DNA of 36,744 nucleotides from an uncultured Ignavibacteria bacterium (lineage in GTDB: Bacteria > Bacteroidota > Ignavibacteria > Kapaibacteriales > UBA2268), in the NCBI GenBank assembly GCA_903862655.1, contig CAIOZA010000116.1, forward strand, positions 1 to 36,744, in the 5' to 3' direction. A program made the translations under genes and the position numbers. The notes under the pieces are model-generated. The model did no database searches and was not told where the DNA came from. It saw only the letters and a list, made by a program, of their open reading frames with translations. Below are positions 8,383 through 30,230 of the stretch, one piece after another; within the stretch, counting starts at the first letter, position 1, and the number at the start of each line of letters is the position of its first letter.

Positions 8383-11300
8383 ATGAGAAATAGGGTGAAC
8401 CATAAAGGATTTTACTTTTTTAGAGTTTTGATACTGGCTTTTGTATCAATACTCTCTTTCTCGTTTATGTATGCAGGAGATGTCCTTCAAATAACAAATG
8501 GTGGACTTTTTTATATGTCACCCTCTGCTCTTGTTTCAATCAAAGGAAATGTAATTTTAAATAGTGGTGGAACTTATACTCAAAATGATACAGGTACTGT
8601 TTTTGTTTCCGGTAATATGACAATGGATGGGACCTTGAATTCCGGTAATGGAGCATTTATATTTAACGATACTTTAAATTCCACAATTGATGGATCATCT
8701 AGTCCCGGATTCCATACTGTATATGTTAATAAAACAGCAGCAATTGATAATGGTTTTTATTTGAAACAAGGAATAACAGTAAAAAGGGATTTAACTCTCA
8801 CAAATGGTGTTTGTTATCCCGATAGATTTAGGATTTATATTGGCGGTAATTTTAACAATAATGCTACATTTACGCAGGCAACTTCTACAGTTGTTTTCAA
8901 TGGGTCTGCTCAACAATTCATCAATGGTCGTGCTACAACATTCTATGATTTGTGGATAAATAAGACATCCGATACTGTCAAAACCGCAAATGATGTTGAA
9001 GTTGATCATGCTTTCCGTATAGTCAGTAACTCTGTTTTTAATATTCAAACCTTTCACTTAACAATAGGTCCAAATAGCGGTATTTATCCTGATAGTGCTT
9101 CAACCGGTAATGATCCTGTAAATGATCCGTTTAGTATAAATAAATATATAACCTGCGAAGGGGACTCAGCTACATTAGGTAAAATAATTAGGAAGATTCC
9201 TGCAGGTGCTCTAGCGTCAGACAGAGTCGTTAGATTTCCTATCGGAACAAGAGGACCTTCAGGAGGATCAAGCAGAGTCTATTCACCTGGTAGCTTTTTC
9301 TTTATGAACGGTATGACAACATTCGGTGCAAATGCCTCAATATCTTTGAAATGTATACCGGCAGAGCATCCGGCAGTTGTATATAGTAACGTATCTTTAA
9401 AAAAGTATTGGCAGATCTCAACAACTGGTATTGATACAATTTATCGTGGTGGATTTAATGCCAGATTTGACTATCATGTTTCAGAAGTCCAAGGCGATGA
9501 ATCAAAATATACTTTGTGTTTATTCCGACAATATAGTGCATGGTTCATTAATCCAGGTTCGGGATTTGGAGTTGAGACAGTAAACCATAGATTCCGAGTT
9601 GATGAAGTTACACGTACTAGACTAGACGGAGAATGGACATGTGGTCAGCCTGAGAGTGTATCATTAATTTATTATACAAGAAAAAGCGGAAACTTCTCAG
9701 ATGCTACTACATGGTCAAGGGTTGGCTATGGAGGAGCAGCTGCTTCAAATGCTCCGAATTCGATAAACGATTTAATCTATATCGGCAATCATGATACTAT
9801 AACTGTCCTAGCCACACCTCCATATTTCAATGTTTTGACTGTTGATACTACTGGTGCTATGCTTATGGCACAAAATGCATTTTTGCAGGGTGATACTTGT
9901 ATCGTCAAAGATAATACTCTTCTCGGGGTTGCTAGCGTAAATGGAATAACAGCTGTTGCATCATCCGGAAATATTCAGACTTCAAGTAGAATTCTAAGTT
10001 CGAAGTGCATTTATCTTTATAATGGAACAACTGGTCAGGTAACAGGTAATGGTATTCCTAATACTATTCGTTCATTGATTATTCAGAATACCGGGGCTGC
10101 GGATAGCTCTGTAACTTTATCACAAAATGTTCTAATTTCAGATTCGTTAGTAATAAACCGTGGTGTACTCTCCACAAGTATTTATAATGTTGACGGTGAG
10201 ACACCTGGCAAAACATTTACAATGCGTGGTGGTGAATTCCAATGTTTAGTTTTTCCGTCAAGATACACATCACCATCATTTACTGCCGGAACTATTAATT
10301 TCACAGGTACAGGTTCTGTTACCATACCTAGTGATAGTAGCATTTCGGTACCTCCCGTTAAACAATATTTTAATTTGAAATTTTCCGGAGCCAGAGGAGC
10401 AAATACATATATTACACTTTCTCCAATTGGTGAAATTATTATTAAGAATAATTTTGATATTTCTCAATTAACATGGAGTGTAGTTCCAAATGCGGATAGA
10501 TTCATTGTTACAGGTTCCAATGTAGTTTTCGATAAAAGTGGAGGTACCCAGGATATTCCAAGTGATTTGGCAACAGCACAACCTTTAACTTATAGATTAA
10601 CATATTATGATCTTACGATTAGAGGAACCGGAAATAAAAGATTGGTAAATGGAAGTGACAGATTATATATTAGAAATAATTTATATTTGGAGAAGGATAC
10701 TTTATCAGCCAATGGTTTCGATATCTGGGTTTTAGGAGATTGGTACACTACCGTCGGAACAACTTTCCTAGGAGGTACCAATAAGGTAACTTTCGAAGCT
10801 AACGGTGGTACTGACACGATATTATCTAACGGAATTTCTTTCAATAAAGTTGATATTCGCGGTTCATCTACTGGGTTAGTTCGATTCATCGATAAGCTCA
10901 CCATTAATGACTCTCTCAACGTATCTACTGTTGAATTTGAATCAATGGGTTTTGATACTTTGCAGCTGAATGGTCATTTTACTATTGGCAGCGGAAAATT
11001 CATTGCTAATAGTGGTACAGTTCTTTTCTCAAATACAACTTCAAATCAAACATTTACTCATAGTGGTGTTGGTAATTTCCATAATATTACTGTCCGTAAA
11101 ACCAGAGGATTAACTGTAAATGTTGCTGGTACCACAGTTGTAACTATTCTTGACAGTTTAACCTTGTTCGCTGGTAATATTGGTGGAAGAACTGCTTCCA
11201 GACCAGTACTTATGGAGACCGGATCTCAAATAATTCGACCTGGAACCACACCCGGTCATATCGACGGTATTTTAAGGCTACCTGTTCCTTTAAGTGCTAC

Positions 11301-14300
11301 AACTCATAAATTCGATATCGGAGAAGGCACTGCTTATGTACCTCTAACTTTAGCCATAAATGGTTCAGTGGGTACAGTCGGTTATCTCGAAGCTATGACT
11401 GGTTTGGACACAACAGCTGTAAATGTAGGGAGAGTAATTTTAAATACTATTGATCCTAATGGTGCTGCTCTTGACACAACAAAAAATGTTAGAAGATATT
11501 GGACTTTGAATACAAATTTTACTGGTAATACATTCAATCTTGGCACCAGAGACTACGATTTAGAAGTCAAATATCTGAGGTCAGATTTAAGAGGATCTCC
11601 AACATTAGCCGATTCATTGAAATTTGAAATGAGACAGAGAGATGGTACTGTTAACGCAGCGCATTGGTTCCGTACTAACACAGGTGTAAGAGCTGATTCT
11701 TCAATCCAAATAACAGGTAATACATTATTACCCCAAAATACAACGGAATATTTCTTTGTTGGTGAGCCAAAGGTTTTTAATTTTTACAGTATTGCTGATG
11801 GTAATTGGTCTGCATCATCAAGCTGGTCAACTGCCGGATACGGAGGTCAGGCGGCAACTAGAGCTCCACTACCAGTCGATAATGTCTTCATTGGTGATGG
11901 GAAGCTTATTACACTCGATGCTGATCAAACTGTTAATTCAGGATTAACCGTTTTAGTTGAAAAAGCCGGACCTAGCGATCTGCCGGGTACATTAATTTGT
12001 GGAACAAGAACATTAGGTGGAACTGGTACATTTACTTTAGGAGACTCTGCCTCTCTAAGTATTGGTAGCCGATTTGGAATAACTACCGCGGTAGCCAGTG
12101 CTACTGCTGGGAATATTCAAACAACAACTCGAAATTATAACGGTTCTCCTGCTCATAGCAGGGGAAATTTCATATATACAAGTGCTGGATCAGGGGTACC
12201 GCTTGCTGCTGCTGCTGGAGATGGTTTGCCACTTACAATAAATTCATTAACAGTCAATATGGGCACAGCTCCTGTTATTTTGACTATTGCTACATCAGGA
12301 ACTTCATCACCGGCAAGAGTCTTACAGATTAGAGATAGTTTCAATATTGTCAAGGGTGTAGCAAATATTGGTGACATAATAACAAAACTTGGTGGCAATT
12401 TCAGAATAAGTACGAATGGATCTTTTAATCCCGGAACGACCAGAATTGCTCTTGCCGCAAGCACTGCTGAACAAGTTGATAGTGCTAATACCAAATCAGG
12501 ATTTATCTGGAATGGTTATAATAATATTCAGGAACTAATTTGTGAAGACACAACAAGGCTTTTGAAATTTTCAAGATTCTCATTAAAAAAGCCTGGCGGC
12601 GTCGTAATATCTACAAATAATATACATGCACCGGAATTATTATTTTATACTGCTAATAGAGTTAATCTCGATATGAGTACTCATAACAAATATATTATTG
12701 TCTATGACGGCGCGGGAACATATTTAATTAATAGACCACTCCCATTAAATGTATTTACTGCATTAACTGACCCTTTATACGGTTATGTAGATGGTAGACT
12801 CATTAGAGGTATGCAAACTAATGATAACAGAGTCTGGCCTATTGGAACTAAAACAAGATATTCACCGGTAGAACTTACAGTTAATAATGTTAACACAGCT
12901 GGTTTGATTGAGGTTGTAGCAACTGACGGAAATCATCCAAAATTTAATACAAACGGTATTCAGATTAAACCAGCATCAAATATTCAAAGATTTTGGGAAA
13001 TTAGTACTCCAACAATAGCTACATTCACTCAATTTGCACTTAATGCTGCCGGTTCATCAGGTAATACAATGAATGTCAGATTGATTTATTATCCCGATGA
13101 TATCAGAGGAGGAGCTAATCCTGTAAATGATTACTGGATCTTCAGAAAACAAAATATTCCACCTGATGGTGTTGGTACTATTGATAAATGGACTAATACT
13201 CTTAAAATCACTAATCCTAACGCATCCAGACTTGCGACTGAAACAGCAGCCAATCTGAATACTCCGGTAGGTGTGAATGGAAACGGAATTTTTTGCGATG
13301 TATCTCAATTCTCATCTGCAAATTGTATGACCTTAATGGTTGGTGATCAGAATCAACCAAATGTTAGATACTTTTACAGTCGGGCGGATGGAAATTGGAA
13401 TGATAATAATACCTGGTCTCCCTATGGTTATAGTGGAACCGCTTATGGGGCAGGAATTTTCCCAAATTTAAATTCCGGTACCGATAATGATATAGTATTG
13501 ATTGGTGATACGGCTGGAGCAAGTCGAAAAGTGACTTTAAATATCGCAACAGGTACTGCAACTGCTGTGTATGTTGATAAATTTGGGGTTGGCGAAAGCA
13601 GGGGAATATTGTCTTGTCCTGGAGATAATTATTTAAATTGTAATCAATATGTTCAGAAAAATGGTGGGCATCTTGAAATTGGTTCTCCAAGCGGTATATC
13701 AGCGTTAGGAAGTGTAATCGGTAATATAAGGGCATCAATTACTAGAAATTACAATTGGAATCAATATAATAATAATCATTTCTCTTATATCGGAACGGCA
13801 GATCAGGTAACTGGAGCAGGATTACCTGCAGGTCAATTATATGGTGATCCTGTCGGTGTTGGAATGCTAGAGATTAAGAATACAGGTTTTACAGTTACAT
13901 TGAACGATTCTGTTCTTATAAGGGACAGTTTAAAATTGTCAAGTGGAACTCTACGCTTTAATTCAGCCCATCCAATCAATTTGAAAGGTGATTTAATAAA
14001 TAATGTTACTCCAAGAGGTTCAATAGCTCTAGCATCCGCATCCACATCAGCTACAACCAGTTTCAACTTCATTGATACATTATCAACTCAGAGAATTCGT
14101 GGTACTGCAGATTCAACCATATTTCCATCGAATGTTGTTATTAATAAAGCAAATGGAGTGCTTAAAGATACTACTCAACATGTAAAGATTTTAGGTGATT
14201 TTAAGTTTAATAGTCCGACAATATTTGATTTGTGTGATACTAAATCATTAACACTTGATGCTACAAGTAAATACAGCACAACAGGAGTATGGGGCATCAC

Positions 14301-17300
14301 TACTATGGTTAAAGTTTCCGGAGGTCCAAATACAGGAACTTATACAAAGTATTTCAATACTGGTTCACCTAGAGCATTAGATTCACTGTTTATACCAATT
14401 GGCGAAGATTCATTAGGTTTAAGATCAGCAAGATATAGCGAAGCTAATATTAAGTTGAATAATATGAATTATGCTGCCGGAGCTAATGCAACATTAACAT
14501 TAAGATCTTTATACCCACATCCGAATGCACCTGCCGGTACTCCAAGCTTGCTTAAAAAATACTGGAGCGTTTCTAATAGTGGTATAAGCAGGGCTGGAGC
14601 TACGAGTACTACAGATGTCAGACTAACCTATACTCCCTCTGAAGTAATGGGCAATCAGGTCAATTATGTACCTGAATTTTATCGAAGAGCTCCTTCGACT
14701 GGCTGGTCATTCAATTTGAATAATGCTGCATCAGCTGCCTTCGATACGCTTAATAAGGTAATAACTGTGACTGGATCACAGAGAACACCTGATGTCGATT
14801 GGACAGCCGGCGATCCAAGTTCATTCCAATTAGCCAGATCATATTTTAGCCGAGCAAGTGGTAATTGGGATGCAGTTGCTTCGTGGTCCAATGATAATAC
14901 ATCGGGTCCAACTGGTCAACATAATAGTCAAGACACAGCATTGAATTATCCTGGATTTTTCCCTGGTGACAAAGTATACATAGACAAGAACTTTGTCATT
15001 AATTATAATAAATCAACATTGAATCCAATTGACTCTTTGATAATTGGCAATACTCCAACTTTCGGGAATCAAGGTGAACTTCAGTTTGTTTCATCTGCTG
15101 GGTCGAATAAGTTGTTGACAATTAGTCGAAGTGTAAATATCGGAACAAATGGATTAATTTCAAAACAAGCAGGTGCTGTAACAAGTATCGATACATTGCG
15201 TATCTACAATGATTTGACAAATGGCGGTACAGCTGCAAGCAGAGGTATAAATAATGTAGCAACTAGTGCAACTAACAGATTAATGTTTGATTTTGTTGGT
15301 GCAACGCAATCAACTGTTTCAGGCACAGGTAATTTCACTAATCTTGGAATTATTGGAATAAACAAACAAGATGCATTAGACACATTAATTAATACATCAA
15401 CAACTTTATCATCAGGTTTAACAGGCAGTAACTTCTTAAGTTTTAATCTGAATTCAGGTGTATACAGACATGAGAATGCCGGTAATGCAAGACTTAGTGT
15501 TTCAAGCGGTTCCAACGACCTGATAATAGCTGATAATACTTGTATTGATATTCCACAAGGAACTGTAACAACCGGAGATGGCTTTGTGATGCAACAAGGT
15601 TCATCAGTTTTGCTAAGAGGTGGAAATATGATTATTGGTAATGCTGCCAATGAACATTTCCAATATGAGACAGGTTCTAATGTATCTATGTCTAATGCAA
15701 GCATTATGACCGTAGCAGGAAGTTTCAGAAGAAGGTATATTACATCTTCATTGAATTTCTCGATTAGTGGATCCTGTGTCTTAAATGCAGTCAATATGGG
15801 TTCAACAACTGATATTAACAACAGACGAGCCGGGTTCGATATTGGAGCAGCTAATTCTGTTTTCAATCAAACAGGTGGTACAATCAAAGTAATGAGACCT
15901 ATGGATAGCTCTACAGTTCTTAAGGATCCAGATTATAATAATAATTCTGAGACTTATTCAGTAACAGGTGGAACGGTTCAAATGGGCGATCTGACTCAGG
16001 CTGCTTCAACTCAGGCATTTACGGTTTTATCTTATCCCCCTTTCTGGAATCTGGATATAGAGCATACATTTGGTCAAACTTTAACTTTTGGTAATAATTT
16101 AACTATAGTCCGAAATGATTTGTCAATACGCAACAGTTCAGTAGCTACATTGAACGGACAAAATTTAAATCTTGGCGGTGATCTGACTACATCAGGAAAT
16201 GGAAAACTTTTAATGGGTACCTCTGGTTCCCGTGATATTACTTTTATAGGAGATGCTTCTGCAAGTCCAGCAACTAAAAAGTATCAAACTGTTTCTTTTG
16301 GTAATGCATTAAGTGACAAATTCTTCAACATTTCACTTAATAAACCTTCTGGTGGACAGGTAATACTATCACAGACATTATCAAACTCCGATATGATAAT
16401 TACTAATGAATTGGATTTTGATATTGGTAATCAAGGTATTATTAATGCCGGGACAGCACGCTATGTCCAGTTAGGCACAAACGGCACTGATGTTGCGGCT
16501 ATTCAAAGACTTGGGTTAGGTCACGTTGCCGGTGAATTGAGATGGTGGACTGGTGATGGCGTTCAAATTAAAAACTATCCTGTAGGGGATACTTTACATT
16601 ATACGCCGGCTATCTTCCAAAGTACAGCAGGAACGGGCACTCCAGGTTTATTGAGTGTTACTGCTTATGGCTCGAATCATCCGGATATTCTTGCCCTGAG
16701 AACCGCAATTGGAGTAGACACAGCAAAGAATATATATAGATATTGGAGAGTTATCCCAACTGCTAGCTTAGGTTATTCTCTAGGAAGTTCTGGTAGAACT
16801 TATAGTTTGTCTTTGCAATATATTCCGGGAAATTCCCCAACAGGAGATGTAAGAAATTCTGCTGATTATACATTGTTCGAACATTATATAAGAGTTCCTG
16901 ATTATCCAACTGCAGGCACTTGGGATGTGACTACTTTAGCAAGTTATTCTGATACTACGGCTGTATCAACTGCCAATCTTATATTTGGAGACTTTTTGAT
17001 AGCAGAAAATGTAGGACGAAACTTTTATAGCATTGCCAATGGCGATTGGAATCAACCATCAACTTGGTCTAATGCTGATTATACAGGGGCTGCAGCAACA
17101 GATTATCCAAGAAGATACGGTGATCGTATATTTATTGGTAATGGGAAAAGTGTCATATTATCACTATCCAATCCAAATGTCAGATCAGTTACTGTTGAGA
17201 AATTCAACAATCTTCCCGGATCATTAGCTATTCAGGATGATAGATTTATTAAGGGTATATCATTTATTCTTAAAGATGACTGTACAATTAAGACAACCGA

Positions 17301-20300
17301 CGGTTACGGTTTCACTTCTCTAGCCGGTCCATTGTCAACGAGTGGCTCTATTCGTAGCAAGAATATTAGATCTTATGGTGTAAGCCGATATGAATATAAT
17401 GGAGTTCAGAATCAATCGTTAGGTGATGGTGTTCCTCCTGTTGTTAAAACATTAACTATTAATAATAATAGCAACCCATATCCATACGTATCTGTTGTTA
17501 ATTCAAATCTTACAGTTAATGACACATTGGATATTGCAAATGGAATTTTTAAACTTAATGCTACAACCTTGAATCTTAAAGGAAATGTAATTCTTGGCAA
17601 TACCATAACTACAGAACTTGATCCAGGTACAAGTAATTTCTGGCTCGATGGAACTGCAGATCAATATGCTATTATCAATAAGAGCAATGGACTACAAACT
17701 TATAAAACATATATTTCAAAGCTAACAGGTAATATCTTTGTTGCAGGAAGTACACCTATTCCTAATTTCAAGATTTCCAACAATCTGACATTCGAAAATA
17801 ATAATACTGCAAATATTGATACAAGAACATCGCCAGGGAATGGAGTAGTTTCAATAGATTCCGGCGCAACTCTAACCAGACTTGGAAGTGGATATATTGA
17901 CGGTAGATTAAGGAAATTTATTCCAGCTTCAGTTGATACTAGTTCTATGCTTTACGAGATAGGTTATAAGACCGATTACACACCTTTGACTTTAGAATTT
18001 ACATCTGGAACAGGCAGTGTGAAAGGTAATGTTGAAGCTGTGAATTTCTCACCATTACTAAAACAACCTTTCTCGGGAAACAGAATCGATACGACATTTA
18101 AAGTTGATCTTTGGTGGAGTATAACTGCTCCAACTGGTAGTTCATTTGCTATGGGTACCAGATTGATGAACACAATCCTTCAGTATCCTAAATCGCTTAT
18201 TATGCCATCGGTCGCTCTTTTTGATACTGCTCAAGCCGAAGTAAGAAGAAAGAGCATCCCAGCTGATCCATTCGTTTGGATGGATAGAAGGGGTCTTGCT
18301 GTTTTGGATTGGGTAGATTTCCCAACCTATCAAACTGTAAGAATTGCTCCACAATCTACTCCTGCTATATGGTGGTCAGGTTTGGGTGAATTCTATATCG
18401 GTTATAAGAGTCAGAGAATATTTTACAGTAGAGCTTCTGGTCTCTGGACTGACTCTTTGTCTTGGTCATTCTATCCTGGAGGTATCCCCAATGTTCCCTC
18501 TGGTGAATTTCCGAATCCTGATTGGAATGCTCCAATAGCATCTAAAAATGAGATAAGAGATTCAGTAGTTATTCAAAATAGTGATGTAATTACGTTGAAT
18601 ACTATTCCCGAGCTGGCATATCTTGCAATAAACGGGAATGGCACACTATTGATTCCTAATGGCAACTATTTGATGCAAAGCAGTATTCTTACCAGCGTTT
18701 TTGTTATGAATGGCGGTTGGATTAATAATAAAACTCCATTAGGTATAGAAACCGACACAAGTATCAGTATCCTGAGATTTGTAAACAGAACTTTCCATCC
18801 TGAAGCAAGTTTTATTTTTTCTGGTGCTTTGAATCAGAAATTTGGAAATGCTTTCCCAGATTATATTACTAATCTGACAATCAACAATGATGCTAATACG
18901 AGAATTGTTTCTTCTTTATTGAATAACAGCAAAACCGAGCTTAATATTTCAGGCAATCTTACCATTACCCGTGGTGATTTAAGATTATTCAACAATTTAA
19001 ATATTCGCTTGGGTGGAGATCTAACTGATGATGGAATCTTCAATGCTACAATTGATAATTTGAATGCCTCGATTGTATCGACATTAACTATTAATGGAAG
19101 CGGAAACACAAATCAGACTATATCCGGATCCGGGACTTTACTGCTTGATAATCTAAAAATGAACCGCGGAGCTGGTAGTGGTATTCTGCAGGCTAATAAA
19201 TATTTGCAAATTGCGAATCAATTGGATTTGAGAGAAACAGGGAATCTTAACAATCAAATTATTACTCTTGGATCCAATATTGATATGTCAATATTCAGCA
19301 GTTCGGCTAATGCAATTATTAATTACAGCGGTACTGCTCCATTAAGCTATATTAGAACTGATCTCAGCAGTGGACTTCTGATTAGAAAAGTATCTCAAAA
19401 TAATACTTATACTTATCCTATCGGTTCTTTTGAAACTACGGATAAATATACTCCTCTTCTTTTCACAACAGGAGCTACTGGTAATAGCGGATCAGTTGGA
19501 GTAAGAGGATCTAAAGGATCAAATGCAACTCCAGCCTATATTGATGGCCATGCTAGACTGATTCCGATTCAAACTACAGATTATGTCAAAAGATATTTTG
19601 TTGTTGATTCTGTTACAACATCAATTCCTGCGAAATTGAGGTTTTACTTTAATAGCTCAGATATTGCCGGTCTGCAGGCAAACATTAACCGTATAGGTCG
19701 TTGGAGACCTCAGAGAGAAGTTACACCCGGTGCTTGGCGCAGAGTTCAGGGTCCCATTGATTATGGATCTTTCTACTTTGAAACTAATGCTAATGTCGAT
19801 ACCTCCGATTATTATGGCGACTTTACTATTGCTAATGCTGAAGCGTTTAGGCGTTCATTCTTTAGCCGTCAATCTGGTAACTGGAATGATGGCAATGCAT
19901 GGACTTTCTCCAGAACTCATGTAGGTCCTCCGGCCGGAGAATGGCCCAATGAAGCTGATGATTCTGTGCAAGTTGGTGGAGGCAATTTAGGAATCGGAGA
20001 TCATAGTATAGTGTTGAATGTAGGCCCGATAAATACTATAGGTGGATTAGCCGTCGGCACTTCTCTAACAAATTCCGGAACCTTAGATTTTGGCACGAAT
20101 ATTGTAAAAGGGGAGTTCAGTACTGTGTCAGATTATTCAACTTTAAAGTTGGGATCTCCAGATGGAATAACATTAGCTGCTCCATTAGGAAATTTACAGA
20201 CAACTTACAGGACTTTTGCACCAGGCGGCTTTATTTCATTAGTTTATAATGGAGTAACGAATCAATCCCCAGGTGATGCACTACCTAATTCATTAAGAAA

Positions 20301-21110: not shown

Positions 21111-23324
21111 ATGAAAAAGCTTACGTGCCTTTTGACTTTAGTGTTGATCGCTCTGTTCGCATACGAAGCATCAGCTCAGGACTTTACCAATAACATAGGC
21201 GGTACTTACACAGCCTGCGCAACCGGTAAAATTGTTATGCGTTTAGCTGGTGCCAATGGCATTACTACTGGTATCTTTACCGGTACAGCACCTATGGGAT
21301 TGGTTACAAGCAGAATACCCGGTATTGTTGACTGGGGTGCTGGTGCAGCTGGACAGGTAGTTCAGAACAGATATTACACTGATTTAACTGTGTCAGGTGG
21401 TGCTAAAACACTAGCTGATGCTTATATTAGTGGTGTTTATACAATAGCAGTTGGAGCAGGTAACAGAACCTATGGTACTGGTACTATTCATTATGATGGT
21501 ACAACTCTTACACAAGACATTACTTCAGAAAGTGGTGCATCAGCGGGTACCAACAGATATTATAATTTAGTTTTTGAAGGTTCTGGAACAAAAATAGTCC
21601 AAGCAGCTTCGACTGTTTTTGCTGATAACAGCCTTCAAACGCTTCCAGTAGGAGGCAGTGCAGTAGCAACAACTGTTAATGGTATATTAGAAATTGGTAA
21701 ATCTGCAACAGCCACAGCTTCAACTATCAATGGTGCATTTTCAGTATCTGGAGCAACCGCTGCATTTAAGAATGGTAATAGTGCCACTGGTTTTGTGAGC
21801 ACATTTGACATTGCAGCTGGTGGAACGGTATCTGTTGATGCAAATGGCGATGCTACCTTAAATGCTGCATCGACAGTTACACTCGGTAACCTTAATCTTG
21901 TTGCAGGTGGTACTGCAAAATTAATAGTAGCAAATGGTGGCTCATTAACTTTAGCAAACGATTTAGGTGGTTTGGCTAAAATAGATATTGCCGGTGGTAA
22001 AGAGATGACCGTTACTGGTTCTTATACTAATCTTTTCTGTGCCGCCACAAATGCTACTTATAATGTATCATCAATCGTACATTATAATGGAGCTCTTGCA
22101 CAAGCAGTTGCTACAACTGTTGCAACTAATCCTTATGGTAATCTCTGGACAGATGGTGGAGATAAAACATTAAGTGCATGTGCTTTCCCTGCAGGTGTCT
22201 ATGTTGCTGGTGACTTATCACTAGCTGGTGGTAACCTTTACTTAGGTAATGCTGCAACTGCAGCCGCAAGTACATCAACACTGTATATTTCAGATATAAC
22301 TAAGAAAGTAATTTATAATGATCCATCGGTTCTTCATGGAGCATTACTTAGTGCTGATGGACCTACTGAAGTTGTTGGAGCAATGCGTTTGCTGGGTGGT
22401 GCAGGTTTTGCAACTGGTACACCATATAGGTTTAATAATCATGGTATGTTAGCAACATTTACAGGTGGTACTTTTGCAGCTGGAAATTATTTTGAAGTTT
22501 TGTCATTGCCTGGTACAGCTCCAAGAAATTATGATCCTACTAAGGATCTTAATAGAAAAATTAGCTTAAGATATAGTGCCGCTCCTATGGCATTCACTGC
22601 AACAGTTCAAGCTGGTTATAAAGTATCAGATAGAGCATGGGCAGAAAACCCATATTATGAAAATGAATTCCGTTTCTGGGAATCTAGAGATGTACCAAAC
22701 TTGGCAATCGAAAAGATTGCTACTGGTTTCGCATATACCAGAGTTATAGCCGGTACTATTCACACAGTTTCTCTACCAGGTATAACAGAAACCGCCGCTG
22801 ACATTGATGCAGCTCCGATTGGTAATGCTGATGCAGGGTTTTTATCAACAAACGATCTTATTTTACGTGCCGGTCCAACAATTTTCTACTCAATCAGAGA
22901 TGGACGCTGGTCTAATCCTGCAACTTGGGACGAAGGTGCCCAACCAGGTGCTAACGACGACGCTGTTGTAAGACATACAGTTCATGCTGGTTATCCAAGA
23001 CTTTCCGATGCTATGTATGCTTTACCTGAACAGCATCCATTGACACTTGTTAAGAATATTACAATCAATGATGTCGCAGGTTCTTCATTACTTTGGGGTG
23101 GTGGAGCCGGAATTGGAGATGTAAGTATATTTAATCTAACCGCAACAGGTTCAATAACAAACAATAGTAAAATTGGAGGTACAATGGCACCTTCCGGTGG
23201 TAATGATGTTACATCAACTGCATTTAACGGTATGTCAATATTTACACTTTCAACAATGCGTACAAACAACTTATTCAACAACGGTTTGATGAATAACTGT
23301 GGTACTGTTGAAATTGGTGACTAA
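21111..23324 (+). CDS. Exported repeat protein related to the giant, sharing its C-terminal signature
   Basis: I start at 21111 (MKKLTCLLTLVLIALFAYEA, 737 residues). AGGAG lies seven bases before it and a standard signal peptide follows, cleaved near SAQ. An upstream in-frame ATG at 21048, also behind AGGAG, would add 21 residues. The mature protein is rich in Ala, Gly, Thr and Asn and beta-strand-like. One 'FYSIRDGRWSNPATW' header, as in the giant, lies near residue 592 (nucleotide 22884). The protein ends NNCGTVEIGD, matching the giant's end, with no T9SS tail. Ala/Gly-rich low-complexity sequence at about 170-300 may be extended beta-helix. It is probably a partner or minor subunit of the same surface structure. 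Confidence 0.8.
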   Translation: MKKLTCLLTLVLIALFAYEASAQDFTNNIGGTYTACATGKIVMRLAGANGITTGIFTGTAPMGLVTSRIPGIVDWGAGAAGQVVQNRYYTDLTVSGGAKTLADAYISGVYTIAVGAGNRTYGTGTIHYDGTTLTQDITSESGASAGTNRYYNLVFEGSGTKIVQAASTVFADNSLQTLPVGGSAVATTVNGILEIGKSATATASTINGAFSVSGATAAFKNGNSATGFVSTFDIAAGGTVSVDANGDATLNAASTVTLGNLNLVAGGTAKLIVANGGSLTLANDLGGLAKIDIAGGKEMTVTGSYTNLFCAATNATYNVSSIVHYNGALAQAVATTVATNPYGNLWTDGGDKTLSACAFPAGVYVAGDLSLAGGNLYLGNAATAAASTSTLYISDITKKVIYNDPSVLHGALLSADGPTEVVGAMRLLGGAGFATGTPYRFNNHGMLATFTGGTFAAGNYFEVLSLPGTAPRNYDPTKDLNRKISLRYSAAPMAFTATVQAGYKVSDRAWAENPYYENEFRFWESRDVPNLAIEKIATGFAYTRVIAGTIHTVSLPGITETAADIDAAPIGNADAGFLSTNDLILRAGPTIFYSIRDGRWSNPATWDEGAQPGANDDAVVRHTVHAGYPRLSDAMYALPEQHPLTLVKNITINDVAGSSLLWGGGAGIGDVSIFNLTATGSITNNSKIGGTMAPSGGNDVTSTAFNGMSIFTLSTMRTNNLFNNGLMNNCGTVEIGD
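23292..23324 (+). other. C-terminal signature NNCGTVEIGD
   Basis: The same terminal pattern as the giant protein, in the same register: NNCG, two residues, EIG, one residue, stop. The residues before it also match in kind (LFNNGLM here, VINSSII in the giant). Confidence 0.7.
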
Positions 23325-23339: not shown

Positions 23340-23365
23340 GAGGTCAGGAGACGTCTCCTGGCCTT
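23340..23365 (+). promoter_or_regulatory. GC-rich perfect palindrome just before the third surface gene
   Basis: CAGGAGACGTCTCCTG (23345-23360) is a perfect 16-base palindrome. Flanking GAGGT and GCCTT extend the RNA stem with wobble pairs. It lies 15 bases after one stop and 10-16 bases before the next start. No U-run follows, so an mRNA processing or stability hairpin, or an operator, fits better than a terminator. Its GC content stands out strongly from the surroundings. Confidence 0.55.
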
Positions 23366-23375
23366 GGATTTATTT

Positions 23376-25427
23376 ATGTTTATGAAAAAGATCTTAACCA
23401 TATTGACGGTTTTCGTTCTCATAACCATCGTTGTTAATTCACAATTACTCGATGGGCGAAATACTATTATCAATACAGGAAAGATTATTGTTCATGGTCA
23501 AGCTAGACTCACACAGGACACAATTGGCGGTAGAGTTGAATACGTGAAGAGTGTTAATTCTCAGACTCAAACTATTCCTCAAATCGTATATAATGAGTTG
23601 AAATTTGGCGGCACATCCGAAAAGATGGTATCTGATCCAACCAAAAAACTTGTAGCATTGACTCAGTACATTGCAGATTCAAACTCAATTGTATTGCTCA
23701 ATCTTGCAACAAACATACAATCCAAAGGTTTAACAGTTCAGAATGGTATAATCAATCCTAGTTTACTTCAGGGCAGATTAATCCTAAATGGCGATGCCAA
23801 TCAATCTACAACAGGAACAGGTACATTCCGCGAACTCGAATTGGACAACAAACAGGGAACAAACGTAACAAACGGAGGTGGCTTCAAAGTCAGCACTGTA
23901 TTGGAATTGCGTCGTGGAGAATTCCACAACGATGCAGCCAATAATTTCTCAGTGGGTGACTCAGCGACCATTATTCGTCACGTCGGCAGCTCTCTTGCTG
24001 TCGAACCTCAGTTCGATAAGCATGTCAACGTTCACTATGTGGGCGATGGTGCAATGAATACGGGAGGCGAACTGCCATCTGATTCTACGAAATTATCAAA
24101 TCTTTATGTTGAAAATTCTGGTGGGGTTACATTAACAAAACATGTAACAGTAAACGATACATTGTTAGTTGGTTCAACAATCCGCACTGAATTCGACGAT
24201 ACTTCAAAATATGTACTGACATATACATCATTCCGTGATCCAATATTTGGATCAGTCAATTCTGAAATTGATGGTAGCATCAGAAGGACATTGCTTCGTT
24301 ATGACAGCTCAAAAGTGATATTCAATAATCCATATTCTTATGCATTATTTAAGAGCACTTCAGAAGCACCAAATGTCAAGGAAATTACTTTCCGTATAAA
24401 GCCCAGAACATTTCCACCAATGCTTAACGGCAATACAAAAGTTCAAAGGTTCATAAGCATTCGTGCAAAAGATGAACAGTATAATGACATACCAAATGGA
24501 GTGGATTTCACAGTTGGATATGGATTCCGTTATGATAAAAATGACACATCATTCGACGAATCAAATAAAAATGACGTAAATAGAGTTAAGCTGGAACGCT
24601 GGATTGCTCAGGGAAATTCCTGGGTTGATCTTCAGGGCTCTCAGCCAACAACAGTGGATGAAGTTAACAGATGGGTATTTGCTGAAGTAAAGAATTTCCA
24701 GAACTTCGGCGATTTCTCAATTGGCATGGCTGATGGATTAAGAAATATGCTATTTGCAAGTGAAGTTTTACTTGAAGGTGGAATGAGAAATCGTCAGCAG
24801 GATATGGGGCAGGAACTAAGGGATTCAAATTTGATACCATTAATGCCTCCAAATATATATCCGTATAATCTTGATCCAAAGAGAACATTGTACAAACTTG
24901 CCGTTATTCCGGATTCTGCAGTTGATTGGATATTGATTGAACTTAAATCAAGTATATCCGGTGGAAAATCAACTTATGTTACATGTTTTGTTAGAAGAGA
25001 TGGAAAATTAATTGATAGGGAAGGAAAGTTTCCAATCAATTTATACAGTGAAGGTGTAGATTCCGGAAATTATTATATTGCAGTCAGACATCGCAATCAT
25101 TTATCAATTATAACAGAAGAACCGGTAGCTATTCTTCCGTCAAAAAATGTAACTCTGATGAATTTTACCAAACCAGAGAATTTACTCGGTCGTGCAGACG
25201 CATTGAAAGCCTTAGGTTTCAGACCTGATGGTTCATTATTGTTTGGAATGATAGCTGGAGATTCAAACGGTGACGGTAGAATTGATGAATCCGATAATAT
25301 TTCAACTTGGGATGATAGGGATTATGAAGGATATTCACCAAGAGACATAAACTTGAATGGGATAATACTGACAAGTGATTTAAACATAGCATGGAACAAT
25401 AGAGGAAGAAAAACATACGTTCCCTAA
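23376..25427 (+). CDS. Exported beta-repeat protein with a dockerin-like calcium-binding end
   Basis: I start at ATG 23376 (MFMKKILTILTVFVLITIVV, 683 residues); ATG 23382 is equally possible, while a TTG at 23364 lies inside the hairpin. A signal peptide ends near VNSQ. The body resembles one unit of the giant protein: a strand-rich region with 'L.V...G....g.l', then 'GSVNSEIDGSIRRTL' and a segment ending in NFQNFGDFSIG. The C-terminus (from about residue 628) has two EF-hand-like loops, DSNGDGRIDESD and DINLNGIILTSD, arranged as in type I dockerins. No cohesin is recognised nearby. The mature start IINTGKIIVHGQ resembles the giant's last residues. It may be an assembly or capping subunit. 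Confidence 0.75.
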   Translation: MFMKKILTILTVFVLITIVVNSQLLDGRNTIINTGKIIVHGQARLTQDTIGGRVEYVKSVNSQTQTIPQIVYNELKFGGTSEKMVSDPTKKLVALTQYIADSNSIVLLNLATNIQSKGLTVQNGIINPSLLQGRLILNGDANQSTTGTGTFRELELDNKQGTNVTNGGGFKVSTVLELRRGEFHNDAANNFSVGDSATIIRHVGSSLAVEPQFDKHVNVHYVGDGAMNTGGELPSDSTKLSNLYVENSGGVTLTKHVTVNDTLLVGSTIRTEFDDTSKYVLTYTSFRDPIFGSVNSEIDGSIRRTLLRYDSSKVIFNNPYSYALFKSTSEAPNVKEITFRIKPRTFPPMLNGNTKVQRFISIRAKDEQYNDIPNGVDFTVGYGFRYDKNDTSFDESNKNDVNRVKLERWIAQGNSWVDLQGSQPTTVDEVNRWVFAEVKNFQNFGDFSIGMADGLRNMLFASEVLLEGGMRNRQQDMGQELRDSNLIPLMPPNIYPYNLDPKRTLYKLAVIPDSAVDWILIELKSSISGGKSTYVTCFVRRDGKLIDREGKFPINLYSEGVDSGNYYIAVRHRNHLSIITEEPVAILPSKNVTLMNFTKPENLLGRADALKALGFRPDGSLLFGMIAGDSNGDGRIDESDNISTWDDRDYEGYSPRDINLNGIILTSDLNIAWNNRGRKTYVP

Positions 25428-25502
25428 TCAAAGATTTTTGTAGAAACCGATCAAACAGATTTGAGGACAATATCGTTGAGTTTTTAGACTATAATTTTTA
25501 AG

Positions 25503-26858
25503 ATGATGAATAAATTTCAAAAGATATTATTATGTTTATTATTACTACTTATACCAATCTTCACACCTTTGGCTGCGCAGAATGATACTTCTGCTGTGGT
25601 CAAAATTGAAAATATCATTTTAACCGGTAAATACGAAGTCGAATTTGATGTCAATCTGTACCGCATGGATGAACGTTGGCTTTATTGGGCTAATGGTTCA
25701 TTCCAATTTGCATTTGATACAACGTCAGATTATCAATTCAACTTAAATAATCACTCAATAACTTATCTTCCCGGAACAAGCGATTTAAATGTAACAACAA
25801 TGGCTGGTGTAACAGGTTTACCAACTGATGATTATCTGATCACGCCAAGAATCATTGGTAGTAAATTCAGCTTAACCGTCGCAGGTCCTGACAGTATATT
25901 TAATTGTTACAAAGTCCGTAAAGACACTCCATTGAAAATTGGAAGGTTTAGAATAGAAAATAAAATTCCTTCATCCCCTCCCACGCGCTTTAAATGGCTA
26001 ACACCTTATTCTTATTATCAAGCGTTGGCGTATAAAACGAATAAAGATAGTATTTTATTGCCGGATTTATTTCGTTATAATACAAATGATAATATCGAAA
26101 TATACGACGAAAAGCATAAAGTAGAGTACGTTGCCGAAAGCTATGATCCTCGTATGATCATAAAGAATTTTCATGCTGAATACATGGGATCTTTACTTGT
26201 GAGATGCACATGGGAAACCGAAAGTGAAGCATTTAATGAAGGATTTGTCGTCAAAAGATCCGATTCCTGGATTCAGGGAAGTGATTCGACAAAAATAAAT
26301 TATGACATTACTGCCGGAAGCTATAAAGATTCCCCATATTATCCACAGCTAATCGGTCTTGGTACATCCAAGAAAGGTCAGAAATATGAAATGTGGGACA
26401 CAGTTCCATATCGTGGAATCAACTATTGCTATAAACTTTACAATCAATACAAATATGTTGATACACTGTCACCGAATGCTATATCTTGCATAACAACTCC
26501 AAATTCAGTTATCAGGGATGCTATGGCTTTAGAAAATCCATTTAACTATTCTACTACAATTAAATTCTGGTATGAAGACGATGTTATGGTTGATATGAGA
26601 ATTTATGATTTAAAAGGAAGATTGGTTGATGCTTTACTCAATAGTGCCATTTATAAGTATTATGGCAAAACCAAAGATCTACCAGGAAGTATAACTGATA
26701 ATGCGATAAGAAATAATTTGCCGTACGGAGAAATAAAATGGACACCTAAAGATTTAGCACAACAAGGGCTGTACGAAGTTGTTATTATTGGAACTCCAAT
26801 AAAAGATCCAACAGTAGAGAAGTCAGTTATGGTAATAAAACTGCAATATGTTAGGTAG
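25503..26858 (+). CDS. Exported protein with a T9SS-like C-terminal domain
   Basis: A 451-residue protein with a signal peptide (about 1-25, LLCLLLLLIPIFTPLAAQ). The N-terminal half (about 30-165) begins 'VKIENIILTGKYEVEFDVNLYR' in style, a beta-sandwich seen in exported proteins of this group. An Fn3-like stretch follows near 215-330, with LLVRCTWETESEAFNEGFVV. The end starts at ENPFN (344-348) with 'sTTIkF......v.mrIYDlkGrlVd.Ll', the pattern of T9SS sorting domains, and finishes with 'GLYEVVIIG'. It should cross the outer membrane by T9SS. It lies 75 bases after the dockerin-like gene and abuts the next gene, so the two are probably cotranslated. Confidence 0.75.
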   Translation: MMNKFQKILLCLLLLLIPIFTPLAAQNDTSAVVKIENIILTGKYEVEFDVNLYRMDERWLYWANGSFQFAFDTTSDYQFNLNNHSITYLPGTSDLNVTTMAGVTGLPTDDYLITPRIIGSKFSLTVAGPDSIFNCYKVRKDTPLKIGRFRIENKIPSSPPTRFKWLTPYSYYQALAYKTNKDSILLPDLFRYNTNDNIEIYDEKHKVEYVAESYDPRMIIKNFHAEYMGSLLVRCTWETESEAFNEGFVVKRSDSWIQGSDSTKINYDITAGSYKDSPYYPQLIGLGTSKKGQKYEMWDTVPYRGINYCYKLYNQYKYVDTLSPNAISCITTPNSVIRDAMALENPFNYSTTIKFWYEDDVMVDMRIYDLKGRLVDALLNSAIYKYYGKTKDLPGSITDNAIRNNLPYGEIKWTPKDLAQQGLYEVVIIGTPIKDPTVEKSVMVIKLQYVR

Positions 26859-28801
26859 TGAAAACTTATATGAACTTAAAAAATTATTATCTAATTCTTT
26901 TAGTATTGGTTTTCTTTCAATTTGCGAATCTTGAAGCACAATTTTCTATACTATCACCTTTAAATTCTGATACTCTTACCTCTGGAACAATAACTACAAT
27001 TCAGCTACAGAACCAAACCAACACAAGAGTAAAACTTAGTTATTCAAACGATTACGGAAGTAACTGGACACTCATAAAGGATAGCCTGAGCAGTTTGAAT
27101 TATAAATGGCTTGTACCTTCTCTCGACACAGGAAAATGTCTTATCAAAGCAGAAGCAAAAGGATATTCAAATCCATATCTTATTTGGGAAAAGAAATTTG
27201 CACATAAAGATGAGATAAGATCAGTTGAGATTTCAGAGGATGGTAAGTATATTCTATCTTCAGGCAATGACTATATGGTGAAAATTTGGGATATTCAATC
27301 TAAAATTTGTATTGATTCTATCACAACAATTGCCGGCTGCTACTCTGCCCATTTTATTTTCGGGAATGATTCAATACTAATTACCGCCGGCAATTCAGGG
27401 TACATTTGGGACAGGAAAAATCTCTTTAATCCATTAAATCAATTTTGTAATTTTGCAAACAAAGCACGTACTTCAGCTGTTCACACTAAATCACGAATCG
27501 TTGCAATAGGATCTTATGATGGAACAATTAAAATTTATGATTTAAATAATCTCAGTCTGCCTATCATTACAATAAATTCACCAAATAATGCCTGGGTTTA
27601 TACTTTGAGCTTTTCTAATGATGGGAATTTATTAGGATATGGTGATGCCAATGGTTATGTCTATGTTTATGACTGGAAAAACAATAAATTAGTGAATACT
27701 TTTGGTTTGAATTCTTCCAATTCTATATGGAGTGTTGGATTCTCACCTGATTCGAAAAGGATAGCAAGCACAGGGGTTGATGAAACTTTGAGAATCTGGG
27801 ATATCCCATCAAATCTAAATGTGTATAATATAACGGCACATATCAATGACATCCGGTCATCAAAGTTCCATCCGGCAGGCATTTATGTTTTGACTGCAAG
27901 TCTTGACTCATTAATCAAACAATGGGATCCACAAACGGGTGCACAGATTAGTATTGCAATGAATCATGGTAACCAAGTAATTTCTGCTGAATACTCACCG
28001 ACAGGAGATACTATTGTTTCAGCAGGCAGGGGAGATGTAAATACCGGGGATTTTCCTATAAGACTTTGGAAGAACATTCAATACTCTGATCTATCTGATA
28101 CCGTTTTGGTAAATGTTAAATATCCTATCGCTTTCAAAACAAATTCAATCGATACTTTTCCTGATAAAGTTGTATATCTTCCTGTTTCTTATCGTAATGT
28201 ACCTCAGACGGATACTCCTAAAGATTTACAATTAAATGCTATTTTAAAATTATCAGTTCCTTTAGAGCTACTTGATCTGAAATCAAATGCGATTCACTCC
28301 GGTAAAATAGGAAAATATGATACAGTTTCATTGTCAATACCTAATTTCAAATGGCAGGATACTGTTGCTTTACTAAAATTCCGAACATTATATAGTGAAA
28401 ATAATATAAATCAAGTAAAAATAATTGGAATAGAATTTGATAAATTAAGTAACTATTATCTGCTCAGTGATACGAGCAAGGTTCAGATAAACCCTGTATG
28501 TGGCAGAGATCCGATAAAAGGGCTAAGCTTTGCAGGCTTCAATAACGATATAAATGTCTATCCAAATCCGATAATAGATAATGAACTTAACATAGAATTT
28601 GATTTGGTTGAAGATTCTAATATTGAAATTAATATTGTCAATATCAATGGCTATATAATCAAAAATATAGTTAAAGGTATGTTTAAACGTGGTCGATATG
28701 TATATAAGGACAATTTGACGAATTTGAAAAATGGTTTTTATTTAATTCAAATGAAGCATAATATGAATATGATGAATAGAGAATTAATAATTTTTAGATA
28801 G
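26858..28801 (+). CDS. Secreted WD40 beta-propeller protein with T9SS sorting tail
   Basis: The frame starts at GTG 26858, overlapping the previous stop by one base; ATG 26870 (MNLKNYYLILLVLVFFQFAN) is an equally good start. A signal peptide (to about residue 28, LEAQ) leads to a short Ig-like region, 'LSYSNDYGSNWTLIKDSL'. WD40 repeats fill about 113-400, with VKIWDI, IKIYDL, LRIWDI and IKQWDP ends and 'S.DGKYILSSG', 'FSPDSKRIASTG' blades. The tail starts at YPNP (568-571) and reads 'NIEINIVNINGYIIKNI' then GFYLIQM, a classical type A T9SS domain. An extracellular propeller would serve as a binding platform for surface proteins. Only the sorting function is clear. Confidence 0.85.
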   Translation: MKTYMNLKNYYLILLVLVFFQFANLEAQFSILSPLNSDTLTSGTITTIQLQNQTNTRVKLSYSNDYGSNWTLIKDSLSSLNYKWLVPSLDTGKCLIKAEAKGYSNPYLIWEKKFAHKDEIRSVEISEDGKYILSSGNDYMVKIWDIQSKICIDSITTIAGCYSAHFIFGNDSILITAGNSGYIWDRKNLFNPLNQFCNFANKARTSAVHTKSRIVAIGSYDGTIKIYDLNNLSLPIITINSPNNAWVYTLSFSNDGNLLGYGDANGYVYVYDWKNNKLVNTFGLNSSNSIWSVGFSPDSKRIASTGVDETLRIWDIPSNLNVYNITAHINDIRSSKFHPAGIYVLTASLDSLIKQWDPQTGAQISIAMNHGNQVISAEYSPTGDTIVSAGRGDVNTGDFPIRLWKNIQYSDLSDTVLVNVKYPIAFKTNSIDTFPDKVVYLPVSYRNVPQTDTPKDLQLNAILKLSVPLELLDLKSNAIHSGKIGKYDTVSLSIPNFKWQDTVALLKFRTLYSENNINQVKIIGIEFDKLSNYYLLSDTSKVQINPVCGRDPIKGLSFAGFNNDINVYPNPIIDNELNIEFDLVEDSNIEINIVNINGYIIKNIVKGMFKRGRYVYKDNLTNLKNGFYLIQMKHNMNMMNRELIIFR

Positions 28802-28844
28802 ATTTTTTTTAGGCATTTTTTTTAGCAAAATATTTAATAAGAAA

Positions 28845-30230
28845 TTGAAAATCCAAAATAATCATATTGTTTTTTTAGTATTTTTTACACTTTTAACAAC
28901 ACTTTCATCCCTTTCTCAAAATAGTCTGGATGGAATTTTGTACGATTATCAGGTACTTCCGAATAATGATACTCTCCTAACAGTCCGTAATCCCGGTGAT
29001 TGGTGGTATGGTTTAACTGGTGGAATCAATGCTAATATCTTTTATGGTGATTTAATCATTCCTCAAAATCCTAATCCTTTCAATCCCGCTGCAGATACAA
29101 TCTCAACAAACATGGTAAGTTTTAAAACTAAAACTAGTATTTCTCCATGGGTTGGACTAATGACAGAGTATAAACCAAATGGGAGTAATTATGCAATATT
29201 TTTGGGATTAAATCTTTTCGATGCAAGATCAGTTCAAACTGATGATGTTGTCGATAAAACTAATAATGCACACAGTTATACATTTTCAATGAATTATACT
29301 TATGCAAGTCTATCCCCAGGATTTAGATATGATCTAACCAAATCACTATTTATACTAAGTAGTATTTCTATAGAATATCTTTTAAGTTCTAAACAATCTG
29401 TTATTGATAAATATACTGGAGTTCGATATCGACGTGTTCCCCTGGGACCTCTGGAATATAGATTTGGTATTAACCTTGGATTGGGATATGATTTAACATT
29501 TCTGGATATCAACCGTAAATACAGAGCAAAATTTACTCCTTATCTTTTGTTCGGAGCTGGTACTGCCGCTTTTACTGGGTATAAGTCAAATACTAATCAA
29601 TTTCTCATTAGACTGGGATTCCAGGTTAAAATGGGTAAAGATAATTCAATTCAGGAAACTCTTCCTGGTAATCCTGATGCTATGTTTCAACCTGGAGATC
29701 TTGCCCAGTTAAAGAATACAAAAAATATATCCTTTACTTTACCATCAAACAACCTGGTTGCTTTTGATATTAGACCATTTAGTAATAGTATAGTAAGTAT
29801 TGAAGAAGATACTACAAAATCTATTGAAATAACCGGTACCTTAATTCCCGATGAAAAAACTGAGAAAGTTGAAATAGTTTACAACAGAGTTAAACCATTC
29901 TATTCACCTGCAGCCGAAAATACTAAAGTCACAAAATCACTTCAAACCTATTTGGATGAATTCGTGAAAACATGGCAAAAAGATAGATCTATTTTGATAG
30001 ATGTAGTTGGATATTCTGATAACCAAGGATCGTTTGAAGTTAATGAAGCCCGTTCGAGAGAAAGAACTAAATTAGCAGTCGACTATCTTGTGAAAAGGGG
30101 AGTACCTCGACTGAATATTTATGACAGAGTAGGTGGATCCCGTAATACTGGAGAGAATCAGTTTACCGCTGATGGACGACGTAAAAGTCGTAGGGTAGAT
30201 ATTAGTATCAGAAAATCCCCGAAAAAATAA
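28845..30230 (+). CDS. OmpA-family outer-membrane protein with peptidoglycan-binding domain
   Basis: A 461-residue protein starting at TTG 28845; the next in-frame ATG would remove the signal peptide (LVFFTLLTTLSSLSQ). Residues about 45-265 look like an outer-membrane beta-barrel, with alternating aromatic strands such as WWYGLTGGINANIFYGDL and YRFGINLGLGYDLTFL. A linker follows. The OmpA-like domain (about 345-461) carries the conserved Asp in DVVGYSDNQG (from 386) and Arg in KSRRVDI, which bind peptidoglycan. It closes the surface block and could anchor the structure to the cell wall, as OmpA-type partners do for other large surface proteins. No PorP/SprF-type barrel is present. Confidence 0.85.
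   Translation: MKIQNNHIVFLVFFTLLTTLSSLSQNSLDGILYDYQVLPNNDTLLTVRNPGDWWYGLTGGINANIFYGDLIIPQNPNPFNPAADTISTNMVSFKTKTSISPWVGLMTEYKPNGSNYAIFLGLNLFDARSVQTDDVVDKTNNAHSYTFSMNYTYASLSPGFRYDLTKSLFILSSISIEYLLSSKQSVIDKYTGVRYRRVPLGPLEYRFGINLGLGYDLTFLDINRKYRAKFTPYLLFGAGTAAFTGYKSNTNQFLIRLGFQVKMGKDNSIQETLPGNPDAMFQPGDLAQLKNTKNISFTLPSNNLVAFDIRPFSNSIVSIEEDTTKSIEITGTLIPDEKTEKVEIVYNRVKPFYSPAAENTKVTKSLQTYLDEFVKTWQKDRSILIDVVGYSDNQGSFEVNEARSRERTKLAVDYLVKRGVPRLNIYDRVGGSRNTGENQFTADGRRKSRRVDISIRKSPKK

Follow-up and report, generated by a model that had tools for sequence, protein, structure and literature searches.

Putative cohesin–dockerin-type clip in a conserved surface-protein locus of the Kapaibacteriales

How could a set of exported proteins, several of which carry no recognizable sorting tail, be held together on a bacterial surface? 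The question is raised by a 36,744-nucleotide stretch of DNA from an uncultured Ignavibacteria bacterium of the order Kapaibacteriales (GenBank assembly GCA_903862655.1, contig CAIOZA010000116.1), the whole of which is hereafter referred to as the window. Six consecutive plus-strand open reading frames, g1 to g6, spanning positions 8383–30230, encode exported proteins, the first of which is a giant. A simple hydropathy score revealed a hydrophobic signal-like stretch at the N-terminus of each of them and of a seventh protein, gD, encoded just upstream (7/7). The six genes listed in a preliminary description of the window were thus confirmed; gD, whose stop codon lies 33 bp before g1, was missing from that list. 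The description also held that the locus has no obvious known counterpart, which is half right: the X-dockerin of g3, the cohesin-like domain and type IX secretion system (T9SS) sorting domain of g4, and the beta-helix of g3 with its relative g2 resemble known modules. Our analysis suggests that the locus probably encodes a surface-attachment apparatus joined by a non-cellulosomal clip of the cohesin–dockerin type.

Predicted domains of g3 and g4

The predicted model of g3 has a predicted local distance difference test score (pLDDT) of 85. Residues 27–370 match right-handed beta-helices in VIA matches to the model (6c72_A, Z 12.6; 7jvi_A, Z 12.1). The listed rows covering residues 461–687 are all X-dockerins, i.e. 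an X-module with a dockerin: seven rows with Z of 7.6–8.2 and 137–143 residues aligned (4wi0_B, 8.2; 4fl4_L, 8.2; 2b59_B, 7.6; 4u3s_B; 5g5d_B; 3kcp_A; 5m0y_B). Taken alone these Z values are middling; the sequence evidence agrees with them. Two tandem calcium-type loop–helix repeats at the C-terminus, the feature by which dockerins are recognized, are found in g3. Both calcium-loop patterns are present in the window copy, and the tandem C-terminal repeat is plain in an alignment of 24 members; among g3-type proteins, the pattern of loop 1 was found in 35 of 41 and that of loop 2 in 34 of 41. The Pfam model Dockerin_1 (PF00404) does not match the window copy and matches 10 of 32 g3 members at E up to 0.5, with a best value of 1.8e-5. 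When a multi-lineage profile of the X-dockerin family was compared with PDB, 16 of 21 rows were dockerin chains (best E 0.0043), some of the 16 being presumed dockerins from our general knowledge and not from the row name. A Foldseek search with the whole g3 model returned nothing at E 0.001 or better. With both calcium-loop patterns in place, the dockerin-like tail that had been ascribed to the third protein is real.

The predicted model of g4 (pLDDT 87) comprises three domains. Residues 28–213 match a cohesin of CipA (4fl4_I, Z 9.6, root-mean-square deviation 3.4 over 133 aligned residues; 3kcp_A, Z 9.3), both chains being from the same scaffoldin and both matches from the full-length g4 model. 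Residues 216–334 match FN3 in VIA matches to the model, and residues 334–451 match the C-terminal domain of PorU (6za2_A, Z 10.5, 25% identity). Foldseek with the whole g4 model returned mostly multidomain FN3 rows. The predicted cohesin-like fold is linked to cohesins by a chain of profile comparisons: the profile of the g4 N-terminal domain (g4N) aligns with a set of cohesin-like proteins from outside the order, described below, at E 2e-5, and that set aligns with Pfam cohesins at E 3e-5. Unrelated domain pairs, used as a control, gave E 0.029 or worse; all of these are E-values of single comparisons.

The fourth protein had been described as T9SS-tailed. No Pfam or NCBIfam match for such a tail is found in the window copy; support comes from the family, in which PF18962 matches 16 of 37 aligned members at E up to 0.5 (best 1.2e-4), and from the PorU fold. 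We conclude that g4 is probably a type A T9SS substrate. Its tail resembles the T9SS type A sorting domain (PF18962, TIGR04183; PorU 6za2), which g5 also matches, in fold and partially in sequence, and differs from it in being divergent and well conserved within the order. As it is divergent yet well conserved, the tail may be retained rather than cleaved.

Conservation of the pair within and outside the order

A match to g3 is present in 54 of 60 genomes of the order, the window's own included (the tail alone in one, G050), and a near full-length g4 in 52, one per genome, with g4 in two pieces in G027 and cut by a contig end in G057. No g4 was found in the seven genomes without an ortholog of g3, nor in one whose contig stops right after g3. 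The group is known mostly from environmental DNA, and the named relatives compared are Candidatus Kapaibacterium. Among named contigs, titles of whole-g3 carriers read Candidatus Kapaibacterium or Kapabacteria and also, under older or vague labels, Ignavibacteria, Bacteroidetes and, once, Bradyrhizobiaceae.

Besides the window's own genome, 53 have a g3 match; wide loci were fetched from 40 of them and scored by blastp and profiles. Of the 39 loci with room for g4, 38 have it as the next gene after g3, at distances of −39 to 217 bp. In 33 of 37 loci g3 is preceded by g2, and in one further locus the two are fused; g6 is found no more than 5.5 kb downstream of g3 in 34 of 37. The propeller gene g5 occurs in 16 of 39 loci and g7, a gene downstream of g6, in 21 of 36. 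A blastp relative of g1 was detected in 13 of 40 loci, in 12 of these upstream of g2, in a sample where many fetched stretches end short of the far-upstream region. The single exception to g4 adjacency is L071 (G041), where g2 and g3 are fused and g4 is on another contig. L075, having no room for g4, was left out of that count; L048 and L058, where g3 was given a long start that runs into g2, were counted as g2-bearing; and two further fusion loci, L240 and L241, with g4 directly after the fusion, are outside the gene-order counts. The constant core of the locus is g2-g3-g4-g6, and the giant g1 and the propeller g5 are less constant. Given this conservation, the gene set is far from chance. 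Homologues scattered in relatives without a shared order would have spoken against a common structure; the 40 loci do not show this, and the earlier proposal that the proteins build one structure gains strong support from the conserved order and from three g2–g3 fusions. The WD40 protein g5, found in 16 loci, drops out of the core of such a structure.

The g3-type tail extends beyond the order. At least 585 stretches matched in a search with it, 565 of them confirmed relatives, and record titles place it also in Saprospiraceae, Ignavibacteria, KSB1, Calditrichia and Cloacimonadota. A set of 62 tail rows outside the order was assembled from 38 loci, several of which come from one genome; it holds 60 distinct proteins, as the overlapping loci L129 and L134 duplicate two. 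The tail lies within 20 residues of the C-terminus in 56 of the 60 proteins and is not terminal in four. A signal-like N-terminus was seen in 48 of 52 rows with the start in view, and a T9SS tail in none of the 62 rows. By comparison, 22 of 25 cohesin-like neighbours at the tail loci do carry a T9SS tail; of the three without one, two are truncated at a contig end.

The cohesin-like profile was trained on 15 proteins chosen by eye among matches to a g4 hidden Markov model; these matches mostly span the FN3 domain and the tail, and include the N-terminal domain only in L116_8 and L121_0. Because the training proteins were picked by eye and 12 of the 15 were already adjacent to a tail, it is the held-out set that constitutes evidence. 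The profile finds 11 further proteins: one is a cohesin-like/X-dockerin fusion, and the other 10 are all encoded beside an X-dockerin gene, compared with a mean of 2.5 and a maximum of 7 in shuffles, none of 5000 reaching 10. A phylum sample of 296 genomes was searched, 271 of them outside the order and some possibly close to the genomes from which the profiles were built. In these 271 genomes the X-dockerin occurs in 23, the cohesin-like domain in 12 and both in 11 (Fisher p 1.3e-12). By a hand count from coordinates, 15 of 27 cohesin-like matches are immediately downstream of, and co-oriented with, an X-dockerin. Three proteins (L132:9431-10837, L137_2 and L147_18) contain both modules and could form self-linking chains.

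Is the X-dockerin-like tail simply one more T9SS sorting signal, and g4 a co-regulated surface protein? The extreme C-terminal place of the tail and its occurrence mostly in signal-peptided proteins without a T9SS tail would suit a signal. So would its position within the order, where it closes 12 of 12 frames of 1106–6220 amino acids fetched from three other families (L222–L233, picked from g3-tail matches). However, the fold and the two-loop repeat are dockerin-like and unlike immunoglobulin-like sorting domains, the four non-terminal tails do not fit, and the cohesin-like neighbour is left unexplained; we consider this explanation improbable. One genome of the order, G044, has 12 X-dockerin matches, g3 included.

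Several observations weigh against a clip between g3 and g4. Residues 649–677 of the g3 model, within the dockerin, have pLDDT <50, and some g3 proteins are without a canonical loop. The direct comparison of g4N with Pfam cohesins is weak (E 0.0038, Prob 9%). The Pfam Cohesin model (PF00963) matches none of 37 g4 members at E up to 0.5 and none of 10 cohesin-like neighbours outside the order at E up to 1, and for this reason we use the name cohesin-like and not cohesin. A Pfam-cohesin profile sees a cohesin beside only 1 of 62 tails, and the best PDB sequence matches of the cohesin-like family are alginate lyases (E 0.009). Searching with the cohesin-like profile gave no g4 in 42 loci of the order and no match in the genome of the window; a search of the loci beyond the order with the g4N profile likewise gave nothing. 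As each misses the other in plain searches, the two sets are linked by profile comparison only. The genome's own T9SS-tail profile catches just 5 of 38 g4 proteins. On other contigs of the own genome there are three Pfam cohesin matches (Table 1), possible true partners of the g3 tail. Finally, we take the g4 domain to be like a type I cohesin and the g3 tail to be like a type II X-dockerin, and in cellulosomes type I cohesins and type II X-dockerins take other partners. Our trust in the clip is lowered by the three other cohesins and raised by the g2–g3 fusions, and overall it stays where it was.

Giant, fibre-like and envelope proteins of the locus

The view of g1 and g2 as a modular giant of 4139 residues and a smaller relative with the same ending was borne out. 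The module start F[YF]S...G.W....W occurs in seven copies in g1 and one in g2, and the two proteins share the ending NNCG..EIG(Q/D). No Pfam match reaches cut-off in the window copies of gD, g1, g2, g3 and g4; g1 matches no Pfam family at E up to 1, and 21 of 21 g2 members have no match at E up to 0.1. With a profile built from the type A T9SS tails of the window's genome, no tail was found in g1-type (0/12) or g2-type (0/31) proteins, nor in g3 proteins of the order (0/42), the last result being obtained with the tail profile that detects so few g4 proteins. The shared ending of g1 and g2 was considered as a general sorting signal and rejected, as outside the locus it occurs at chance level: of the 21 matches to a stop-anchored DNA pattern of the ending in 40 genomes, 12 were at the locus and 9 elsewhere, with 8 for a reversed control. 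It may have a role for g1 and g2 themselves.

Judged by profile comparison, g2 is a relative of the g3 beta-helix (hhalign, g2N–g3H E 2e-5; g2M–g2N E 1.7e-8). In each of the three genomes examined from family f7 (G041, G049 and G056; loci L071:7083-11732 on the minus strand, L240 and L241), g2 and g3 form one linkerless protein of 1509–1549 amino acids. These fusions match the g2 profile almost in full and, after it, the g3 profile beginning at the mature start of g3, the respective spans being 23-816/817-1543, 37-784/778-1510 (with g3 in two pieces) and 45-800/793-1504. Linkerless fusion matches the prediction of end-to-end stacking of g2 on g3. A motif, N..G.I..N.G.I.I, is found near the C-terminus of 15 of 34 and the N-terminus of 12 of 30 g2 proteins and near the N-terminus of 22 of 40 g3 proteins, compared with 9 of 406 (g2) and 3 of 482 (g3) interior windows; it is seen at none of 40 g3 C-termini. 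Stacking of helices, with g3 as the plug-bearing cap, fits this pattern and the fusions, and the separate proteins may stack likewise. A point against it is that the strict motif occurs at 1 of 14 g1 C-termini, one of the 14 being cut.

The exported protein gD has no Pfam, NCBIfam or PDB match. Several further loci have its local blastp relatives, of 300–3070 amino acids, upstream of g2/g3, and in three loci without g2 (L068–L070) gD relatives of up to 3070 amino acids lie upstream of g3. In our own reading its C-terminal part resembles a C1q/TNF-like head.

The descriptions of g5 as a secreted WD40 propeller with a T9SS tail and of the last protein of the row as OmpA-type also held. g5 has WD40 repeats (PF00400, E 3.9e-30) and, in the genome search, a type A tail over the cut-off (PF18962, 38.1 bits); TIGR04183 is just under it, with 21.2 bits against a cut-off of 23. 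The Pfam scan of g5 covers the best 25 of 45 families, which leaves room for a type B tail. The OmpA domain is found in g6 and in 20 of 20 members of its family, and the PDB profile matches of g6 are OmpA/Pal domains. The barrel domain PF13568, present in 7 of 20 family members, is not seen in the window copy; g6 probably carries an outer-membrane barrel of its own. A plasmid search with g6 gave nothing but Acinetobacter OmpA domains.

The sprCDBF gliding locus of Flavobacterium johnsoniae encodes a giant exported protein beside envelope helpers, an OmpA-type one included. The present locus is similar in having a giant near an OmpA-type envelope helper in a T9SS organism, and one could suppose that g1 is a SprB-like motility adhesin driven by the T9SS motor and g6 a helper of the SprF/SprD type, with no cohesin–dockerin binding involved. 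The T9SS is indeed present: SprA was found in 39 of 40 genomes, the window's own included, and this 4.07-Mb genome has at least 150 type A tails. The giant exported protein with an OmpA/barrel partner likewise suits this explanation. However, no T9SS tail was seen in the g1 and g2 types with the profile of the genome's type A tails; no type B tail on the giant and no PorP/SprF partner were found (g1 matches no Pfam family, and the own genome has no PorP/SprF); a giant relative is seen in 13 of 40 loci against the constant core, upstream reach being limited; and the locus has a cohesin–dockerin-like pair. A SprB-like apparatus therefore appears unlikely. The part of PMC10202324 available to us states that the secretion of SprB involves SprF and ties PorP/SprF to type B tails. 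The preliminary description had treated the absence of PorP/SprF from the locus as telling; in the order, 5 of 40 genomes have a PorP/SprF match with E no higher than 0.001, and in one a match exceeds the cut-off. The absence is order-wide and hence uninformative, and the idea that it marks a special locus was rejected.

Table 1. Features of the locus and Pfam cohesins elsewhere in the same genome (G000)
Feature	Position	Strand	Description
Gene group at contig start	406-2653	-	tyrosine integrase, unknown protein and HTH_17 excisionase-like protein
Two response regulators	5506-6821		upstream of the locus
gD	6955-8349	+	exported protein, start VGIGTTTP..., fibre-like
g1	8383-20802	+	4139 aa; giant, seven F[YF]S...G.W modules, end ...NNCGVIEIGQ
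g2	21048-23324	+	758 aa; profile relative of g3, one g1-type module, g1-like end
g3	23364-25427	+	687 aa; predicted beta-helix, then predicted C-terminal X-module and dockerin
g3 X-module and dockerin region (residues 461-687)	24744-25424	+	matches to X-dockerin chains
g3 dockerin calcium-type loop 1	25260-25295	+	DSNGDGRIDESD; from sequence
g3 dockerin calcium-type loop 2	25344-25379	+	DINLNGIILTSD; from sequence
g4	25503-26858	+	451 aa; three predicted domains
g4 cohesin-like domain	25581-26141	+	predicted structure
g4 FN3	26148-26501	+	predicted structure
g4 divergent T9SS sorting domain	26502-26855	+	predicted structure
g5	26858-28801	+	647 aa; exported WD40 propeller, type A T9SS tail; accessory
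g6	28845-30230	+	461 aa; probable outer-membrane barrel half, OmpA-type wall-binding domain
g7	30399-32603	+	CHASE/PAS sensor downstream; possible regulator
Pfam cohesin match	C39:10138-10449		frame of 1544 aa
Pfam cohesin match	C27:122255-122575		frame of 1194 aa
Pfam cohesin match	C142:102868-103017		frame of 1036 aa

The genes from g2 to g6 are tightly spaced (39, 75, −1 and 43 bp), and a gap of 245 bp separates g1 from g2; a promoter scan of this gap gave a result near shuffle level. The locus is flanked by two response regulators upstream and by the sensor g7 downstream, which suggests that it may be under its own signalling control. In relatives, a gene of ~130 amino acids with weak response-regulator matches often stands just before g7. 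Other upstream genes read as purE and nadE. The gene group at the contig start, beside purE, is possibly a remnant of a mobile element; no transfer RNA was found in the window.

Proposed arrangement of the apparatus

We propose that g4 would be exported by the T9SS via its sorting domain and would display the cohesin-like domain on the FN3 stalk. The X-dockerin tail of g3 would plug into this domain, and g3, itself without a T9SS tail, would thereby be fixed to the surface by g4. The beta-helix of g3 would serve as a base or end-cap for g2 and, through g2, for the giant g1; stacked end to end, the three proteins could form a fibre or mat. g6 may tie the outer membrane to the wall nearby, and g5 would be a lineage-specific accessory. 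In genomes whose giants carry no clip, g3 may act as the adaptor.

Non-cellulosomal cohesins and dockerins are said to have been the subject of work by Peer in 2009. The pairs of a cohesin and a type II X-dockerin in cellulosomes (2b59, 3kcp, 4fl4, 4wi0) are similar to the present pair in the predicted cohesin-like fold of g4 and the predicted X-dockerin of g3 with its two calcium-type loops. In contrast to them, the cohesin-like domain here is unseen by the Pfam cohesin model, a single pair is encoded by neighbouring genes, beta-helix structural proteins and not enzymes are carried, and anchoring is through a T9SS sorting domain. As far as the accessible part of PMC8542988 goes, Ca. Stygibacter likewise combines a cohesin protein whose C-terminal domain serves surface attachment with exported, dockerin-tailed proteins, but its scaffoldin is a 3755-aa tandem-cohesin protein with enzyme clients, whereas the locus described here has a single-cohesin g4 and a structural client and is conserved across an order. 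That the cohesin-like protein displays polymer-degrading enzymes on the cell as a cellulosome-like scaffold is hardly credible: dockerin enzymes with a cohesin scaffoldin have been inferred in Ca. Stygibacter, of the Cloacimonadota (same part of PMC8542988), the X-dockerin protein L233 of the order has, in our reading of its sequence, a metallopeptidase-like start, and the own genome has other Pfam cohesins, but no enzyme is recognized in the locus, each g4 has one cohesin-like domain and not an array, and g3 is the sole X-dockerin carrier found in the window genome.

A further, tentative idea is that the clip acts as a T9SS sorting tail in trans, with tailless X-dockerin clients riding piggyback on a tailed cohesin-like protein. 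It starts from exported proteins, some of them giants, whose X-dockerin occupies the very place that a T9SS tail would need and whose genes often neighbour one for a tailed cohesin-like protein. The client would bind the cohesin-like protein in the periplasm and cross the T9SS pore folded, as a non-covalent complex; one tailed cohesin would then both export and anchor tailless clients, giants included. If binding precedes the crossing of the outer membrane, g4 would be such a tail in trans. The available part of PMC10202324 describes T9SS substrates as folding in the periplasm and the sorting domain as the signal, which leaves room for sorting of this kind. The mode would be spread over Bacteroidota and some neighbouring phyla. 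We regard this idea, its spread included, as doubtful.

The full-text literature searched, mostly without subscription journals and preprints, contained no description of the locus or of an X-dockerin/T9SS pair of this kind, and there is nothing on either in the accessible parts of PMC8857248 and PMC12484212. For the cellulase genes of Melioribacter roseus no dockerin is reported in the accessible part of PMC3534657, which has no bearing on the proteins described here.

If a clip between g3 and g4 is indeed formed, cohesin–dockerin chemistry would be at work well beyond cellulosomes, clipping structural surface proteins to one another throughout an order. It would give a function to a C-terminal region that Pfam scans named at most a weak dockerin and that has many carriers, and it would explain how proteins that lack a T9SS tail stay on the surface, perhaps even how they are exported.

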